Part shown: positions 4,704 to 32,443 of the stretch, piece by piece
Layout: each line of letters begins with the position of its first letter
Position numbering within the stretch: the stretch's first letter is position 1
Assembly (NCBI GenBank): GCA_026710825.1
Contig: JAPOQH010000017.1
Span: 1 to 36,099, forward strand
Direction: 5' to 3'
Length of the DNA stretch: 36,099 nucleotides
DNA from: Chloroflexota bacterium
GTDB taxonomy: Bacteria; Chloroflexota; Dehalococcoidia; Lucifugimonadales; UBA3495
Position numbers and translations under genes: made by a program
Notes under the pieces: generated by a model
Database searches by the model: none
The model's input: the letters and a program-made list of their open reading frames with translations, nothing else
Told to the model about the DNA's origin: nothing

Positions 4704-4778
4704 TGGAGCGGGCGATGGGATTCGAACCCACGACTTTTTGCTTGGGAAGCAAACACTCTACCACTGAGTTACGCCCGC
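4704..4778 (-). tRNA. tRNA-Gly (anticodon CCC), CCA encoded
   Basis: The minus strand folds as a standard cloverleaf. A 7-bp acceptor stem starts GCGGGCG and pairs with CGCCCGC, followed by discriminator T and an encoded CCA. The D-arm contains AACTCAGTGGTAGAG. The anticodon stem TTTGC/GCAAA encloses loop TTCCCAA, giving anticodon CCC, which reads GGG. The T-arm has GGTTCGAATCC. It stands alone between protein genes. Confidence 0.95.
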
Positions 4779-22177: not shown

Positions 22178-22900
22178 TCATTCCACAGCCACTGCCGCCA
22201 CCGCCTCGGCTATCGTGATGTCGCCGGTGTAGAGGGCGCGGCCGATGATGGTTGCCTCCGCGCCGGTGGGTACCAGCTTCGCGACGTGCTCCGCCGCGCC
22301 AACGCCGCCGGCGGACAGCACCTGCAGACCGCTGTCCCGCACCAGTGCAGCCGTAGCATCATAGTTAGGTTCCTCAAGCGTGCCGTCCCGGGAGATATCG
22401 GTGTAGAGCAGGCGAACGACGCCCAGGTTTGCCATGCGGCGCGCCAGGTCGGTGGCGGTGATCTCCGACGTCTCAGTCCACCCGTGCGTCGCCACCAGGC
22501 CGTCGCGGGCGTCCAGCGCCACCACCACGCGCTCGCTGCCGAACCGGCGGCACAACTCCTCTACCAGTTCGGGATTGGAGACGGCTGCGGTTCCCACCAC
22601 CACACGGGCCGCGCCGGCGTCGAACAGACCGGCCGCCGTGTCCGCGCTTCGGACGCCGCCTCCCACCTGCACCGGTATGGTCAGGCTGCGGGTGATGGCC
22701 GTGATGGCGGCCAGGTTGGCCGGGTTGCCGGAATGCGCGCCGTCGAGATCAACGATGTGCAGGCGCTGGCCGCCCTCGGCCTGCCAGCGTTCCGCCACGC
22801 CCAGGGGGTCATCGGAGAACACCATCTCCTGCTCGTAGTCGCCCTGGTACAGACGGACGCAGTTGCCGCCGCGAAGGTCGATTGCCGGTATGATTTCCAT
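22178..22900 (-). CDS. hisA: Phosphoribosylformimino-5-aminoimidazole carboxamide ribotide isomerase
   Basis: A 240-residue (beta/alpha)8 isomerase of histidine biosynthesis, converting ProFAR to PRFAR by an Amadori rearrangement. It starts Glu-Ile-Ile-Pro-Ala-Ile-Asp-Leu-Arg-Gly-Gly with catalytic Asp8. It has the phosphate loops Gln-Val-Gly-Gly-Gly-Val-Arg and Ser-Ala-Gly-Gly-Val-Gly, and the second catalytic Asp130 in Val-Ala-Leu-Asp-Ala-Arg-Asp-Gly. Thr-Asp-Ile-Ser-Arg-Asp-Gly-Thr is also typical of HisA rather than HisF. It starts 4 nt after the frameshifted protease gene and lies in the same minus-strand run as hisH. hisF and the rest of the pathway are not in the window. Confidence 0.95.
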   Translation of the reverse strand: MEIIPAIDLRGGNCVRLYQGDYEQEMVFSDDPLGVAERWQAEGGQRLHIVDLDGAHSGNPANLAAITAITRSLTIPVQVGGGVRSADTAAGLFDAGAARVVVGTAAVSNPELVEELCRRFGSERVVVALDARDGLVATHGWTETSEITATDLARRMANLGVVRLLYTDISRDGTLEEPNYDATAALVRDSGLQVLSAGGVGAAEHVAKLVPTGAEATIIGRALYTGDITIAEAVAAVAVE

Positions 22901-25068: not shown

Positions 25069-25380
25069 ATGACCACCCAGGCGGTTTCCCTCGAACTTGA
25101 ACCACGCGAAACGTTGGGCAAGAAAGTGAAAGCCCTTCGTCGCGCCGGCACGGTGCCCGTCCATCTCTACGGGAAGGGCGTCGAGTCCCGAGCCCTGCAA
25201 TGCGAGGTGCGCACCTTGCTGCGGGCCATCAGCCGGGCCGGCGGCGAGTACAGCGGACATTCCATGAGCGTCAGCATCGCCGGGGAATCCGGATCGTACA
25301 CCGTCCAGGCATCCGAGATACAGTGGGATCCTCGTTCCGGCAACGTGCTGCACGTGGACTTTCGCACCGTATCGTCCTGA
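25069..25380 (+). CDS. rplY: Ribosomal protein bL25-like 5S rRNA-binding protein
   Basis: A 103-residue protein matching the short bL25 domain that binds 5S rRNA in the large ribosomal subunit. It shows Leu-Glu-Pro-Arg-Glu-Thr-Leu-Gly-Lys-Lys-Val-Lys-Ala-Leu-Arg-Arg-Ala-Gly-Thr-Val-Pro, then Leu-Tyr-Gly-Lys-Gly. It ends Val-Leu-His-Val-Asp-Phe, the usual end of the N-terminal domain. The CTC-type C-terminal extension is absent, as in the E. coli form. It starts with ATG after GGAG about 11 nt upstream and is divergent from the adenosyltransferase gene. Confidence 0.85.
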   Translation: MTTQAVSLELEPRETLGKKVKALRRAGTVPVHLYGKGVESRALQCEVRTLLRAISRAGGEYSGHSMSVSIAGESGSYTVQASEIQWDPRSGNVLHVDFRTVSS

Positions 25381-25465: not shown

Positions 25466-26236
25466 ATGTACATGATTTTCCTCAGCGAGTCCGGTCTGAC
25501 CGGCCCCAGCGCCAACGACCCGAACCAACCGCACCACGTCCACGCCGGGCTCCTGATACAGGAAAACCAGTACGTCTCGATCACAGGCGAGTACGATGCG
25601 CTGGTCAGGCGGCACTTTGGCGGTCCTCCAGGGTCGAACGGCGTTCCCGCCGGACTGAACCCGCGGCACATGTATCAAGGCACCGGCCCCTTCCGGTCCT
25701 GGAGGCCGGAGCGGCGCGCGGAGTTGATCCAGGACTGCCTCAGCATCCTCGTCCGCAGGGAAACTCCCCTCATCGTGTCCTACATCAGCAAGGCTGATTA
25801 CGTTGATGCCAGCGCCACCGAGGGCAATTCTCTGTACGGACACACCGACCCGTCCCGCCTTGCCTTCAGCCGTTTTCTCCTGGCTCTCACCATGTTCCTG
25901 GACGAAAACGTGATGCAGCAGATGAACCCGGACGACATCATGCAGTCGGTCTGGGACGTGAAAGACTATGCCCTGCTTATGGCCGGCTCGGAATCAAAAT
26001 CCATCTCGTCGGCGATGGCCGAGTTCCTGGGCGAAGAATCAGATACCGTTTCGCCGTCCATCTACGACGACCTGATCGTTGCGCCTCCCGAAACCTGTGT
26101 GGGCGCCCAGCTGGTCAACATCTGTTCCTATATCGTGCGCCGCTGGCTGCAGCAACCGGGAGTTCCCCACGGGTACTTCGACGCGCTCAGCGAAGGTCGC
26201 GTCATCCAGGTCGTCTACCCCTATCAGTTCAATTAA
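25466..26236 (+). CDS. DUF3800-domain protein
   Basis: A 256-residue protein resembling DUF3800, a family with a predicted RNase H-like fold and unknown function. The N-terminus Met-Ile-Phe-Leu-Ser-Glu-Ser-Gly aligns with the family's usual Tyr-Leu-Asp-Glu-Ser-Gly, so the first conserved Asp appears to be Ser here. The C-terminal part has a degenerate Ala-Gln-Leu-Val-Asn-Ile-Cys-Ser-Tyr-Ile-Val-Arg-Arg corresponding to the family's Leu-Ala-Asp motif. Loss of both acidic positions hints at an inactive or altered enzyme. AGGAGG lies 7 nt before the ATG. Confidence 0.65.
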   Translation: MYMIFLSESGLTGPSANDPNQPHHVHAGLLIQENQYVSITGEYDALVRRHFGGPPGSNGVPAGLNPRHMYQGTGPFRSWRPERRAELIQDCLSILVRRETPLIVSYISKADYVDASATEGNSLYGHTDPSRLAFSRFLLALTMFLDENVMQQMNPDDIMQSVWDVKDYALLMAGSESKSISSAMAEFLGEESDTVSPSIYDDLIVAPPETCVGAQLVNICSYIVRRWLQQPGVPHGYFDALSEGRVIQVVYPYQFN

Positions 26237-26324: not shown

Positions 26325-27884
26325 ATGAGGTTGCCGAGTACGATCGCTCTCTGGGGCGGAGCCCTGAGCGTCATCCTGGTGATCGCTGGCGCCAGCGCGG
26401 CCTGTGGGCAGCCATCCCGGTACGAACCGCAGTCGCCCGCGCTGACGGAACCGCCGCCCGCCACGACCGCGCCCGCAGCTACGGATGCTGTTACTGCGAC
26501 TCCGGGCGTGCAGGCGCCGGCCACTCCGTTTTCCCAGCGCGTCTATGACCCCAACCTCACCATGTACGGCATCTGGGACGGCCTCGGGCACGATTCTGGC
26601 GATTCACTGGCGGCCCTGGAGGACACCGTTTTTTATGATGACAAGTCCCAGGCATACGTGATCCTCGAGGCCCTCAAGTTCTTCAACCTGGATGTCGCCC
26701 GCGCCGGCCTGGATACTCTCACCGAGTTGACCGGAGAGGACTTTGATTTCGACCGGCGGCGTTGGCGTGAGTTCGTCGGGGCGCGTGAGGAGGAGTACGC
26801 TCCGCCGTCGGATTACGGGCGGTGGAAAGTGAACGGGCTGTCGGTGATCGACCCCGAGATGGCAGCGTTGCTGGAGCCCGGCATTTCAAGCTCGCGAGTC
26901 AATCTCACCGAGGTGGTCTGGGGCGGCGTGCGGGTTGACGGCATCCCACCGCTGGAGCATCCGCCGCACATCCTGCCTGAGGAGGCGGCCTATTTGCTTC
27001 CCGACGACCGGGTGTTCGGCGTTTCCATCAACGGCGAGCACCGCGCCTACCCGCTGCGGGTGATGAATGCCCACGAGTTGGCGAACGACACCCTGGGGGG
27101 TGAACCCATCTCGCTGGTGTATTGAACGCTCTGCGGCACCGGAATCGTGTATTCCGGCATCGTCAACGGAGAATCCACCACCTTCGGCACTTCCGGCCTG
27201 CTCTACCGCAGCAACAAGGTTATGTACGACCGGGCCACCCGCTCCCTATGGAACCAGTTCATCGGTGAACCGGTGATCGGGCCGCTGGCCGATTCGGGCA
27301 TCCGCCAGCCTTTCTTCCCGTCCGTGGTGACCACGTGGGGCGAATGGTGGGATGAGCATCCTGAGACCACGGTCCTGGCGCAAGACACTGGCATCTACCC
27401 CCCAGAGTTCTACGTGCCAGAAGACAACCCCCTGGCCATCTACTTCAACTACTTCACCTCAGAGGAGGTGATGTTCCCGGTGTGGATTCGGGACGAGACG
27501 TTCGATCCCAAAGCCGTGGTGGTCGGACTGTCCGTTGGTGAATCCAACAAAGCCTACGCAGTGCGGGATTTGCAGGACGCGCGGCTGGTCAACGACACGG
27601 TGGGCGGCATGAACGTGGTGGTGGTGGCGTCGCCGGAATCCCGCGCCGGCCGGATCTACGAGCGCGGCGACCTGACCTTCACGACTACGGATGATGATGA
27701 CCTCGGCCTGGCTCCTGCAGCCCTGCTTGACGACAGCGGCATCCGATGGACTGTGACGGAGACCGGACTGGTTGCAGACGACGACGCGTCCAAACGGTTG
27801 GCGCGCATTCCCAGCATCACGTCATTCTGGTTCGGCTGGTTCCAGTACCATCCGGAAACGGAGATATACGGTCAGGAGCGGTAA
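26325..27884 (+). CDS. DUF3179 lipoprotein with in-frame UGA; candidate selenoprotein
   Basis: Read through the UGA at codon 267 (27123-27125), this is one 519-residue DUF3179 protein. The N-terminus has a lipoprotein signal with Cys27 (Ala-Ser-Ala-Ala-Cys), then a Pro/Thr/Ala-rich linker. The DUF3179 core surrounds the UGA: Ala-Asn-Asp-Thr-Leu-Gly-Gly-Glu-Pro-Ile-Ser-Leu-Val-Tyr before it, Thr-Leu-Cys-Gly-Thr-Gly-Ile-Val-Tyr after it. The core continues with Gly-Leu-Leu-Tyr-Arg-Ser-Asn-Lys-Val-Met-Tyr-Asp-Arg and Thr-Trp-Gly-Glu-Trp. The family has Cys-x-Leu-Cys at this spot, so UGA replaces the first Cys. A SECIS-like hairpin follows. There is no other interruption in 1.56 kb. Alternatives are a recent nonsense mutation or a base error. 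The protein's function is unknown; it would act outside the inner membrane. Confidence 0.7.
27123..27157 (+). promoter_or_regulatory. Candidate bacterial SECIS element
   Basis: Thirteen nt after the UGA, CCGGAAT (27139-27145) pairs perfectly with ATTCCGG (27151-27157) around the loop CGTGT. The apical loop begins 20 nt after the UGA and has a G among its first two bases. Both properties agree with the published consensus for bacterial selenocysteine insertion elements as I recall it. Confidence 0.55.
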
Positions 27885-28668: not shown

Positions 28669-29553
28669 CTAATCCCAGCGGACGCGGCGGCGCAGTTGTG
28701 CGCTTAGGATGTCCACGGCGATTACCAGCAGCAGATACCACACCAGCAGCAGCGCCACGTCCTCGTAGTGGAACCACGACATCCGCAGCCGGAACTCCCG
28801 TCCCAGCCCGCCGGCGTTGAGGAATCCCACCACCACGGTGGTGCGGATGACAACCTCCCAGCGGTACATCAGGAAAGTGAGGAACATGGGCAGCGCTTGG
28901 GGGAACACGCCGTAGAGCAGAACCTTGGGGCTGGATGCGCCGGCCGCCCGTAGCGCCCGCGCCGGCGCGGGGTCCAGGTTCTCCACCACCTCTGACGTCA
29001 ACCGGCCCACGATGCCCAGGTTGTGAATGCCCAGGGCCAGCGCGCCGGGGATGATGCCCGGCGACAGGAAGAACACGATGAGCATGGCCCACACCAACTC
29101 GGGTATGGCGCGCGTCAGGGTGTAGAGAATCCGCACCGCACCGTACACCAACGCTCCGGTGCGGGACGGCGCGCCGCCCAGCGTCCCGTCGCTCACGTTG
29201 CGCGCCCCCGGCATCAGCAGGACCAAAGCGCCGGCGCCGGCTATCCCCATCGCCAGGATCGACATTGCCAGGGTGTTCAGCGCCAGCCGGCCGGTATCCC
29301 GCCACCGCGCAGCCTGCACGAATGGCGACGGGCCGTCCGATCCCTGGCCGGCCAGGCTGGCGATGAATCCGCCTGCGTTCTGCCAGGTACGCTCGCGGAA
29401 CAGGTCGCCGAACCCGCTGTTCCCGTCAAGCAGGATGAACGCCCACGCGATCACGACCAGCAGGGCCGCCGCGTAGACGGACCAGCGCAGCACGTTGAAT
29501 CGCGCGCGTTGTCCGCCTGTGGGGCGAGATTGCTGGATACCGGTCCGTTCCAT
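28669..29553 (-). CDS. phnE: Phosphonate-type ABC transporter permease (second permease)
   Basis: A 294-residue membrane permease with six or so hydrophobic segments and the binding-protein-dependent transport signature. The coupling loop (EAA motif) reads Ala-Leu-Arg-Ala-Ala-Gly-Ala-Ser-Ser-Pro-Lys-Val-Leu-Leu-Tyr-Gly-Val-Phe-Pro. Arg-Ala-Ile-Pro-Glu-Leu-Val-Trp-Ala-Met before it is typical of PhnE. The ATG at 29553 overlaps the stop of the first permease (TGATG), giving translational coupling, and is preferred to in-frame upstream codons. Together with phnC and phnD it forms a phosphonate/phosphite-type importer; two permeases suggest a heterodimer. Confidence 0.88.
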   Translation of the reverse strand: MERTGIQQSRPTGGQRARFNVLRWSVYAAALLVVIAWAFILLDGNSGFGDLFRERTWQNAGGFIASLAGQGSDGPSPFVQAARWRDTGRLALNTLAMSILAMGIAGAGALVLLMPGARNVSDGTLGGAPSRTGALVYGAVRILYTLTRAIPELVWAMLIVFFLSPGIIPGALALGIHNLGIVGRLTSEVVENLDPAPARALRAAGASSPKVLLYGVFPQALPMFLTFLMYRWEVVIRTTVVVGFLNAGGLGREFRLRMSWFHYEDVALLLVWYLLLVIAVDILSAQLRRRVRWD

Positions 29554-30365
29554 CAGTACGCCATGCTCCGTCGGACGCGGCTGCTCCACCAGTCGACCGC
29601 CACCACCAGGACCACCAGGAAAATCAGCAGGGTCCACACCTGTCGAAACAGCAGGTCGGCCAGCGAAAGCTCAATCTGGAAACCGATGCCGTCGATGCCC
29701 ACAAAACTCATGATGGCGGCGGCCCTGATGCCACATTCCAGCCGGTAGAAGGTGTAGCTCAGCAGGTCGGGCAGCGCCATCGGGATGTAACCGTACAGGA
29801 GTACCCGCAACGGCGAAGCTCCGGTAGTTCTCAGCGCGGCGATGGGCTCCGGCGGCGCGACCTGCAACTGTTCGGCGTAGATGCGGCCCAGGATGCCAGC
29901 GTAGGGAATGGCCATGGCCAGTATGGCCGCCATGGGTGATAGACCAACCGCCGCCACGAACAGCAGGGCCCAGACTAGCTCGTGGACTGAGCGCATGGCC
30001 GCCAGCAGGAATCGCACGGCCACCATCAGGGTCCAGCGGCGTGGGTTGTGTCCGTCCGATGACACCGCCAACACGCCGGATGCCAGGATGCCCAGGGGCA
30101 GACCCAATGCCACCGCCAGGGACATTCCCGCGACGGCGTAGGCCAGCGTGTGCCAGCTTGCCACTACGCAGATGCTCAGGAATTCCGGCGTCAGGTCCGG
30201 CGGAAACAGGGCCAGCAGCACCTTCAACGCCGCCGCGCCGCCTCCGGTATGCGCGATGGGCTGCTGCCAATCGACGCGGGACAGGCTCCAGGCCAGCGCG
30301 CAGACGATGCCAAGTGTCAGCAGACGCGGGCCGGTGAGCCAGGATTGCAACCGCCGAAAAGACAT
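29553..30365 (-). CDS. phnE: Phosphonate-type ABC transporter permease (first permease)
   Basis: A 270-residue inner-membrane permease of the PhnE type. It has an N-terminal helix, Leu-Ala-Tyr-Ala-Val-Ala-Gly-Met-Ser-Leu-Ala-Val-Ala-Leu-Gly-Leu-Pro-Leu-Gly, and Arg-Ser-Val-His-Glu-Leu-Val-Trp-Ala-Leu-Leu-Phe. The EAA loop is Ala-Leu-Arg-Thr-Thr-Gly-Ala-Ser-Pro-Leu-Arg-Val-Leu-Leu-Tyr-Gly-Tyr-Ile-Pro. It lies 17 nt after phnC and its stop overlaps the next permease start. Confidence 0.88.
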   Translation of the reverse strand: MSFRRLQSWLTGPRLLTLGIVCALAWSLSRVDWQQPIAHTGGGAAALKVLLALFPPDLTPEFLSICVVASWHTLAYAVAGMSLAVALGLPLGILASGVLAVSSDGHNPRRWTLMVAVRFLLAAMRSVHELVWALLFVAAVGLSPMAAILAMAIPYAGILGRIYAEQLQVAPPEPIAALRTTGASPLRVLLYGYIPMALPDLLSYTFYRLECGIRAAAIMSFVGIDGIGFQIELSLADLLFRQVWTLLIFLVVLVVAVDWWSSRVRRSMAY

Positions 30366-30382
30366 GGAAGAGCGGTGGTCGC

Positions 30383-31255
30383 TTACCCGTCCCGCGCCGC
30401 CAACCCAGCCAGCGGCTCGACGTCACCGTAGCCGTCCCCAAGGTCGTACAACTCATCCAGCACGGCGTCATCGAGTTCGCCGGCCGGCAAGTCGAAATGC
30501 ACTCTGCTGTCCCTCAGGCCGACCACCCGCGTAAAGTGCCGGCGGATGAGGGACGCCGTATGCAGGCTGGCGATCAACGCGCGTTCGCTGCTGCGGCCGT
30601 CCCCGTTCGCGTGCCCCAGGTCAGAGTGCACCAGGCCGACCAACAGCGCCATCCCCTCCTCGGCGCGGGCCGGGTCCAGGGACGCCACGGGTTCGTCGGC
30701 CAGGACTACCAGCGGCGACTGCATCATCATGCGGGCAATGGCCACGCGCTGCTGCTCGCCGCCGGACAATCGTCCCGGCCGTTCGTTGATCTTGTCGGCA
30801 ATGCCGACCCGCGCCAACGCCTGCTGAGCGGCGCGGCGTTCCATGGGCCAGACCAGCGAGAGTATTGAGCGGGCGAGACTCCAGTGACCCAGGCGGCCGG
30901 CTAGCACGTTGTGCATCACCGGCAGGTGCGGCACGAGGTCGAAACGCTGGCTCACGATTCCCACCAGCGACGCCAATTCCCGGCCCGGCTTCAGGTTGGC
31001 GGGGGATTTGCCGTTGATGCTGACGGAGTTCGGCCCTTCGTCCGGCACCAGCGCGCCGGCCAGCAAACGCAGCAGGGTGGTTTTGCCGCTGCCCGAGGGG
31101 CCAACCAGGGCCACCCGTTCGCCGGCGTGGATGGCAAGGTTCAGCGGCGACAGGCCGCGATTATTTCCATAGACCTTTGCCGCGCTCTTTATAGTGATGA
31201 GCGGTTCGGGCGTAGCAACCTGCTCGCCAGTCCGCACTGGGCGGACTGCGCTCAT
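30383..31255 (-). CDS. phnC: Phosphonate-type ABC transporter ATP-binding protein
   Basis: A 290-residue ABC ATPase. Walker A is Gly-Pro-Ser-Gly-Ser-Gly-Lys-Thr (residues 52-59), the Q-loop lies in Gly-Ile-Val-Ser-Gln-Arg-Phe, the signature is Leu-Ser-Gly-Gly-Glu-Gln-Gln-Arg, Walker B is Leu-Val-Val-Leu-Ala-Asp-Glu-Pro, and the switch His is in Ile-Ala-Ser-Leu-His. Spacing Asn-Val-Leu-Ala-Gly-Arg-Leu-Gly before the signature is PhnC-like. The C-terminal ~40 residues are an acidic extension. Its ATG overlaps the phnD stop (ATGA), so expression is coupled to the binding protein. Confidence 0.92.
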   Translation of the reverse strand: MSAVRPVRTGEQVATPEPLITIKSAAKVYGNNRGLSPLNLAIHAGERVALVGPSGSGKTTLLRLLAGALVPDEGPNSVSINGKSPANLKPGRELASLVGIVSQRFDLVPHLPVMHNVLAGRLGHWSLARSILSLVWPMERRAAQQALARVGIADKINERPGRLSGGEQQRVAIARMMMQSPLVVLADEPVASLDPARAEEGMALLVGLVHSDLGHANGDGRSSERALIASLHTASLIRRHFTRVVGLRDSRVHFDLPAGELDDAVLDELYDLGDGYGDVEPLAGLAARDG

Positions 31256-32160
31256 CGTATTATGCCCAATTCCCTGGCCACGCTCTCAATCGCCTGGTAG
31301 TTGTCGTTGTTCGTTGCAATGAACTGTTCCGTGCTGAACAATTCCAGGACCTCGCCATGGTCCTGCGGGTTCAGCGCCAGCAGCGCCGTCTGCACCTTGT
31401 CGGTGAAACCATCGCCGTACACTTCGTCCAAATCCGCCCGCGCCGTCCAGTTATAGTTGAAATAGTTCGGCGTAGTGTCCAACTCGCGCACCTTGGTTGG
31501 GTCGGCCTTGCCCTCCGTCACCGCTCGCTCCCACACGTCCTCGGCCAGCGCGCCCACGTCGTAGGAACCGGCCGCCACCAGCTGCCAGGTTTTGTCGTGA
31601 GAACCGGAAAATCCCGGTGGCGTGCGGAAATCGTTGGCGACGTCAATGCCGGCATCTCCCAGGAAATACCGCGGCATCAGGTGGCCGGAGGTGGAGCTCT
31701 CACTGCCGAAGGTGATGGTCAGGTCGCCAGTCTGTCCGACCAGATCATCCAGATTGTTCAGGTCGGCGAATTCGTCGCCTCCACGCACGACGTACTTGGA
31801 GTGAAACTCGGCATCGTGGGCCCGCTGTACGATAGCCCGGGCTCCCGGGTTCTGCATCCGGGCCTGCACCCCGGTCAGGGCGCCGAAGAAGGCCAACTGC
31901 ACATCGTTCTGGCTGAATGCCGTCACCACCGCGGAGTAGGACACGCTGGGCACGTATTCCACCGGCACGTCCAATTCCTTTGACAGGTAGTCGGCAAAGA
32001 TTTCATAGCGTCGCGCCAGGCGCTGGGCATCCTGGTCGGGTATGCCGCCGACCCGCAGGGTGGGGGTCTCCTGCTGGGCGCAAGCGGCCGCCAGCAGTCC
32101 GGCGAAAACCGTTACCATGGAGATGAGGAAGAATCGGGCCAATCTGGATCGCAAGAGCAT
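31252..32160 (-). CDS. phnD: Phosphonate/phosphite-type ABC transporter substrate-binding lipoprotein
   Basis: A 302-residue PhnD-like binding protein. The start Met-Leu-Leu-Arg-Ser-Arg leads into a lipoprotein signal ending Leu-Ala-Ala-Ala-Cys27. Mature features are Leu-Arg-Val-Gly-Gly-Ile-Pro-Asp-Gln-Asp, Tyr-Glu-Ile-Phe-Ala-Asp-Tyr-Leu-Ser-Lys, Asp-Val-Gln-Leu-Ala-Phe-Phe-Gly-Ala, and the anion site Ser-Glu-Ser-Ser-Thr-Ser-Gly-His-Leu-Met-Pro, close to the PhnD/PtxB consensus. The ATG at 32160 is preferred over the upstream 32235 start because AAAGGTG precedes it and the signal peptide follows. It captures phosphonate, phosphite or a similar anion for phnCEE. Confidence 0.92.
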   Translation of the reverse strand: MLLRSRLARFFLISMVTVFAGLLAAACAQQETPTLRVGGIPDQDAQRLARRYEIFADYLSKELDVPVEYVPSVSYSAVVTAFSQNDVQLAFFGALTGVQARMQNPGARAIVQRAHDAEFHSKYVVRGGDEFADLNNLDDLVGQTGDLTITFGSESSTSGHLMPRYFLGDAGIDVANDFRTPPGFSGSHDKTWQLVAAGSYDVGALAEDVWERAVTEGKADPTKVRELDTTPNYFNYNWTARADLDEVYGDGFTDKVQTALLALNPQDHGEVLELFSTEQFIATNNDNYQAIESVARELGIIR

Positions 32161-32171
32161 AGACACCTTTC

Positions 32172-32188
32172 TCCGTATCGCGTACGGA
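32172..32188. promoter_or_regulatory. Small inverted repeat in the phnD leader
   Basis: TCCGTA-TCGCG-TACGGA (6-bp arms) lies between the predicted -10 box and the phnD ribosome site. It could be an operator or a leader hairpin; evidence is only the symmetry and position. Confidence 0.35.
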
Positions 32189-32203
32189 AAATAAACTGGC
32201 GGG

Positions 32204-32232
32204 ATAGTATCAACGCACCCCCCCTCGGTCAA
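32204..32232 (-). promoter_or_regulatory. Predicted sigma-70 promoter of the phnDCEE operon
   Basis: On the minus strand TTGACC (32227-32232) and TACTAT (32204-32209) are separated by 17 bp, containing a run of seven G. It lies 44 bp upstream of the phnD start. Confidence 0.65.
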
Positions 32233-32307
32233 CACTGCCCCGGCGCGAACGCGGTCTACGGGTGCGGGCCGGCTCAGCAGGGCTGCTTCGAGGCTGAATC
32301 AACAGCA

Positions 32308-32353: not shown

Positions 32354-32443
32354 GGAGAGGTGCCAGAGTGGACGAATGGGCGCGACTGGAAATCGCGTAG
32401 GGGTTTACGCCTCTCGCGGGTTCGAATCCCGCCCTCTCCGCCA
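32354..32443 (+). tRNA. tRNA-Ser (anticodon GGA), CCA encoded
   Basis: The 90-nt gene has a 7-bp acceptor stem (GGAGAGG/CCTCTCC), discriminator G and encoded CCA. The anticodon stem CGCGA/TCGCG holds loop CTGGAAA, giving GGA, which reads UCC/UCU. A long class II variable arm (GTAGGGGTTTACGCCTC region) and T-arm GGTTCGAATCC are present. This is an ordinary serine tRNA, not a selenocysteine tRNA. Confidence 0.95.

Follow-up and report, generated by a model that had tools for sequence, protein, structure and literature searches.

An in-frame UGA codon in a gene for a DUF3179 lipoprotein almost certainly encodes selenocysteine (Sec), as judged from the sequence of the gene, its relatives, and a hairpin that follows the codon. 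The gene lies on the plus strand at positions 26325 to 27884 of the window, by which we mean the whole 36,099-nucleotide stretch of Chloroflexota DNA that was analyzed (contig JAPOQH010000017.1). It is open throughout except for one TGA and would encode a protein of 519 amino acids if the UGA is read as Sec.

A DUF3179 gene interrupted by a single UGA codon

The TGA is located at positions 27123 to 27125 and is predicted to specify residue U267, at the first Cys of the Cys-x-Leu-Cys motif of the family. The initial annotation had described a frame with this one interruption and with DUF3179 sequence on both sides of it, and profile matching confirmed that description. Residues 205 to 512 of the readthrough protein (positions 26937 to 27860) matched DUF3179 (PF11376) with an E value of 2.5e-74, covering the whole domain from profile position 2 to 292 of 292, and with a score of 250.8 bits against a curated cut-off of 27. 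DUF3179 was the sole Pfam match of the readthrough protein. A plain listing of open reading frames breaks the same gene at the UGA and gives two products of 266 and 245 amino acids. The first codons, at positions 26325 to 26405, appear by eye to encode a signal peptide with a lipobox-like SAA-C end (Cys27), and relatives, also inspected by eye, carry the counterparts IMA-C, ALA-C, and IIA-C. The lipobox-like Cys suggests that the protein is exported and anchored in the membrane.

The codon at the selenocysteine position in relatives

DUF3179 was found in 81 of 400 sampled genomes from the phylum and in 165 of 250 genomes from the order, with up to 11 matches in a single genome. Among the phylum matches listed, 21 genes had an interior TGA and 2 an interior TAG, and a hand count of the matches listed for the order gave about 50 interior TGA codons versus 3 others. 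The window gene had orthologues in 13 of 14 genomes of the same genus, its own included, and every one of these orthologues contained one TGA. The orthologues L155 to L168 are 56 to 84% identical to the window gene and come mostly from the same genomes as L125 to L137, so that they were counted once. Over 50 genomes of the same family, the best 36 rows, all with at least 42% identity, likewise contained TGA.

The aligned codon was read in 138 rows, as TGA in 50, TGC in 66, TGT in 19, and TCC, GAA, and GAT in one each. The TCC and GAA rows proved to be alignments to a degenerate second half of the domain, described below, and were set aside, which leaves TGA or a Cys codon in 135 of 136 member rows. 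The exceptions are few: the GAT row (L083) is a genuine member with Asp at the Sec position, and L093 reads CxxT. All 50 TGA genes of the first set, and all 20 additional TGA genes from the order, have their TGA at this codon. The placement of the UGA at the first Cys of the motif was thus borne out in each of the 70 TGA-bearing relatives that were checked. One homologue, G607, is listed with a second TGA that was not seen within its aligned DUF3179 part, at a locus that holds some N.

A conserved hairpin downstream of the UGA codon

A predicted bacterial SECIS hairpin occupies positions 27139 to 27157 on the plus strand. Its stem is a perfect 7 bp, pairing 27139 to 27145 with 27151 to 27157, and begins 13 nt past the TGA; the loop, CGUGU (CGTGT in the DNA, 27146 to 27150), begins 20 nt past it. 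The stem, loop, and both spacings are correct as originally claimed, and so is the claim that the geometry is that of a bacterial SECIS element. The bSECIS model, as given in the available part of PMC13188914, calls for a loop of 3 to 9 nt, a stem of 4 to 16 bp, a G in the first two loop positions, a spacing of 16 to 37 nt, and a minimum free energy of −7.5 kcal/mol or lower. The window hairpin fits this model with a 5-nt loop, 7 bp, a G at loop position 2, a spacing of 20 nt, and an energy, for the hairpin alone, of −7.7 kcal/mol.

The 60-nt fold is no more stable than shuffled sequences (z of −0.28, with 73 of 200 shuffles as good), so that folding of the single sequence is not in itself proof of function, and it is conservation that supplies it. 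Among the 13 same-genus orthologues, synonymous variation was scored in 195 segments of seven amino-acid-invariant codons each, and the two lowest values fell on residues 271 to 277 and 272 to 278, which make up the hairpin. Where Val is encoded in the loop, 47 of 48 Sec genes use GTG, versus 8 of 27 among the Cys genes (Fisher, 1.3e-10). Relative to synonymous recoding, the mean stability z was −1.42 for 50 Sec genes and −0.16 for 85 Cys genes (p of 3e-9), and 12 of the 50 versus 5 of the 85 were individually extreme. The 32-nt energy was weaker than −7.5 kcal/mol in 13 of the 50 Sec genes, while 37 of the 85 Cys genes reached that limit, and energy alone therefore cannot separate the two groups.

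The 70 Sec genes were sorted by hairpin register, the registers being assigned after looking at the sequences, into 52 of the window type, 14 of a second class, and 4 that belong to neither. In three of these four Sec-DUF3179 genes (L065, L066, and L200), the hairpin takes a third register and has a 4-nt loop, and the fourth (L190) has an N in the hairpin. The 52 window-type sequences, 45 of them distinct, had 92.1% of cells paired, compared to at most 56.2% when the register was slid, and two-sided changes occurred in 5 of 7 pairs and 44 cells. Their covariation score was 0.369, versus no more than 0.045 when slid and no more than 0.089 when shuffled, and none of 500 shuffles scored as high; a smaller, 38-row version of this test preceded the 52-row set. 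The second class uses another register with an 8-nt loop and was 100% paired, with 20 two-sided-change cells and a covariation score of 0.658, versus at most 0.096 when slid. Its G is the third nucleotide of the loop, which the strict bSECIS model does not allow.

Not every measure was discriminating. In one covariation test, the count of pairs with two-sided changes and the pair types were matched by 276 of 500 shuffles, and in the second class, pair types were matched by 500 of 500 shuffles and two-sided-change pairs by 63 of 500. With 10 mixed rows, a slide of +3 scored 0.269 versus 0.310 in register. In each of these three tests, the cell, percentage, and covariation measures beat every shuffle. 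The check for covariation proposed at the outset thus gave a positive answer across Sec-DUF3179 relatives (52 plus 14 sequences). Stops scattered at random, with no hairpin kept, had been named in advance as evidence against Sec; we found all 70 TGAs at one codon and the hairpin conserved.

A second gene and the exchange of Sec and Cys

The host genome has a second DUF3179 gene (L001; contig C127, 82643 to 83587) with an in-frame TGA at the same codon. It belongs to the second hairpin class, together with 13 others, and groups with 71 Cys rows, far from the window gene; the two genes also differ in hairpin register. Matches of like score in all 13 other genomes of the genus list a TGA.

A quick tree of 133 domains was built after masking the Sec/Cys column and dropping alignments that covered no more than 200 query positions. 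The Sec or Cys label requires 5 changes on this tree, compared to a mean of about 40 when labels are shuffled, and all 5 are forced by starred branches. A single clade of all Sec genes was rejected with a p of 1.2e-40 (36 versus 59 rows, quick tree), in a test that used 95 of the 133 rows. Sec and Cys appear to have been exchanged repeatedly in Chloroflexota DUF3179, with a direction that cannot be read from the counts. One Cys member, L077 (TGC), is nested within a Sec clade at 98/89, and its genome contains selA. A reversion from Sec to Cys in L077 was considered and is not secured, as an AU test on 39 rows with the Sec genes as one clade gave a p of 0.20.

Domain architecture and proposed function

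The DUF3179 domain is internally duplicated in tandem, and its second half is degenerate. The first half, residues 224 to 345 (positions 26994 to 27359), bears U267-x-L-C270, and in the second half, residues 393 to 509 (positions 27501 to 27851), the U-x-x-C is replaced by S436-x-x-S439. Comparison of half versus half with hhalign gave a probability of 99.6 and an E value of 2.4e-24. The domain thus originated in a tandem duplication, and the reactive motif is kept in the first half only. Over 134 rows, with column 267 masked, D302, W309, and G319 are 100% conserved and C270, N254, and T305 are 99% conserved, followed by E251 (98%), L269 (97%), Q311 (95%), and H250 (93%). Solved structures gave no sequence or profile match below an E value of 0.7, the best PDB values being 1.1 and 0.7.

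From the UxxC site, the near-invariant residues, and the lipobox-like Cys, we infer a redox site outside the cytoplasm. An exported selenol/thiol redox protein, either an oxidoreductase or a peroxidase, is the function that we consider likely. U267 would be the attacking residue, and C270 (positions 27132 to 27134), the proposed partner, would resolve the selenenyl-sulfide, with His250, Glu251, Asp302, Trp309, and Gln311 lining or tuning the site.

Gene context did not point to an operon-based function, because no neighbors recur widely. In 16 loci of window-gene orthologues, some of them ended by contig edges, flanking genes were common only within sub-groups, and across 20 DUF3179 loci from the phylum, no neighbor family occurred in more than 4. 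A gene for a 256-amino-acid protein with no Pfam match (25466 to 26236) lies directly upstream of the Sec gene and adjoins it in 7 of the 16 loci, the window included. Genes for the permease, ATPase, and binding protein of a phosphonate-type ABC transporter (28669 to 32235, minus strand) stay downstream in the closest relatives.

The main rival to a redox role accepts Sec but has U267 and C270 bind an extracellular metal or metalloid. This is a less probable function, though a serious one, in that Sec may serve as a metal-binding ligand in some selenoproteins, as noted in the available part of PMC13188914, and His250, Glu251, and Asp302 are near-invariant. The case against it is weak: the Pfam matches of the scanned window neighbors included no family for metal transport or metal resistance, and no partner family recurs widely.

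Decoding of UGA is usually incomplete, and one could therefore propose that the UGA serves as a regulated stop, the 266-amino-acid product being the main one and readthrough being minor and dependent on selenium. We regard this as very unlikely, since the short product would be without most of DUF3179, C270 included, and many invariant residues lie beyond the TGA.

Selenocysteine machinery and decoding of the UGA codon

The genome from which the window derives is a 3.86-Mb draft assembly, and it contains all four components of the Sec machinery; the absence of selB and selC was what the initial annotation had put forward as grounds for rejecting Sec. The matches were selA (547.7 bits), selB (366.3 bits), selD (376.8 bits), and tRNA-Sec (selC; 66.4 bits), the last identified by ARAGORN as tRNA-SeC with anticodon TCA. 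Another match above the tRNA-Sec cut-off, at 47.9 bits, is a tRNA-Ser according to ARAGORN. The window itself contains tRNA-Gly (CCC) at 4704 to 4778 and tRNA-Ser (GGA) at 32354 to 32443, both of which are also weak tRNA-Sec matches. The selD gene (L023; contig C87, 44310 to 45233) has one in-frame TGA close to the N terminus, and SelD of the host genome is probably itself a selenoprotein. We propose that the UGA at 27123 would be read by tRNA-Sec with SelB, the hairpin at 27139 to 27157 acting as the guide.

Above the family cut-off, selA was detected in 70 of 80 other DUF3179-bearing genomes of the phylum. It was present in all 12 of those with a listed TGA-DUF3179, none of which is among the ten genomes lacking selA. 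This co-occurrence (12 of 12 versus 58 of 68) fits the Sec reading but, taken alone, is not strong evidence. Among genomes of the same family, selA was found in 43 of 50, and in 18 of the 18 with completeness of at least 90% and contamination of at most 5%. The seven without a selA match are 56 to 87% complete, and five of them (G591, G594, G598, G608, and G615) have a listed TGA copy, which we ascribe to the incompleteness of these genomes.

An open frame by itself says nothing about which residue is inserted, and an altered code or a suppressor tRNA might in principle place an amino acid other than Sec at the UGA. However, TGA is the normal stop for hisA (22178 to 22900), an L25-like gene (25069 to 25380), and a phosphonate-binding-protein-like gene (31252 to 32235), so the code has not been changed wholesale. 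With the Sec machinery present, TGA or Cys codons filling the site in all but one of the member rows, and a covarying hairpin downstream, another amino acid is extremely unlikely. Finally, a nonsense mutation in a pseudogene, or a miscalled TGC or TGT in an assembly of 137 contigs, is scarcely credible, since all 13 same-genus orthologues and the 36 best family rows share the TGA, the third-position GC is 0.79 both before and after the codon, and the hairpin is under synonymous constraint.

Significance and relation to known systems

Reading the UGA as Sec, we tentatively put forward a broader view to which we give slightly less than even odds, namely, that DUF3179 may be an uncharacterized class of extracytoplasmic selenol enzymes, duplicated into a reactive and a degenerate half, amplified in SAR202-type Chloroflexota, and subject to independent exchanges of Sec and Cys with differing hairpins. 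If that is true, the family would serve as a natural experiment in the origin of SECIS elements within coding sequence. At one protein site, different hairpins meet the demands of both the protein and Sec insertion. The repeated exchange marks the reactive residue of DUF3179 and makes its chemistry testable. In practical terms, open reading frame calls split at UGA can conceal a protein that is widespread in this bacterial order.

What the present analysis adds is the spread of the family in Chloroflexota, the apparent exchange of Sec and Cys, two hairpin builds in one genome, and the internal duplication. Searches of open-licence papers found none that joins SAR202 with selenoproteins and two that join it with selenocysteine, and these searches showed nothing on the Chloroflexota expansion, the hairpin classes, or the DUF3179 duplication.

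The window protein has the UxxC motif in common with thioredoxin-like UxxC selenoproteins, but no sequence relation to them was found in a comparison made by sequence alone. The window hairpin and the bSECIS consensus are alike in loop, stem, spacing, and the G at position 2, whereas the hairpin class of L001 departs from the consensus in its 8-nt loop and its G at position 3. A 2007 study by Zhang and Gladyshev reportedly, to go by its title, concerns a deltaproteobacterial symbiont of Olavius algarvensis. PMC9312934, in its available part, credits its listing of DUF3179 to Zhang and Gladyshev 2007 and the Olavius algarvensis symbiont. DUF3179 (PF11376, UxxC/T) is given as a predicted Sec family in the available parts of both PMC9312934 and PMC13188914, and the suggestion in the initial annotation that the family was undescribed as a selenoprotein family therefore does not hold. 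In the available part of PMC9230427, a DUF3179 protein appears as a table entry only. The listed family and the window gene share the same domain and the same UxxC motif; they differ in that the study credited with the listing reportedly concerns a deltaproteobacterial symbiont, whereas the genes described here are from Chloroflexota and fall into several paralogue groups.
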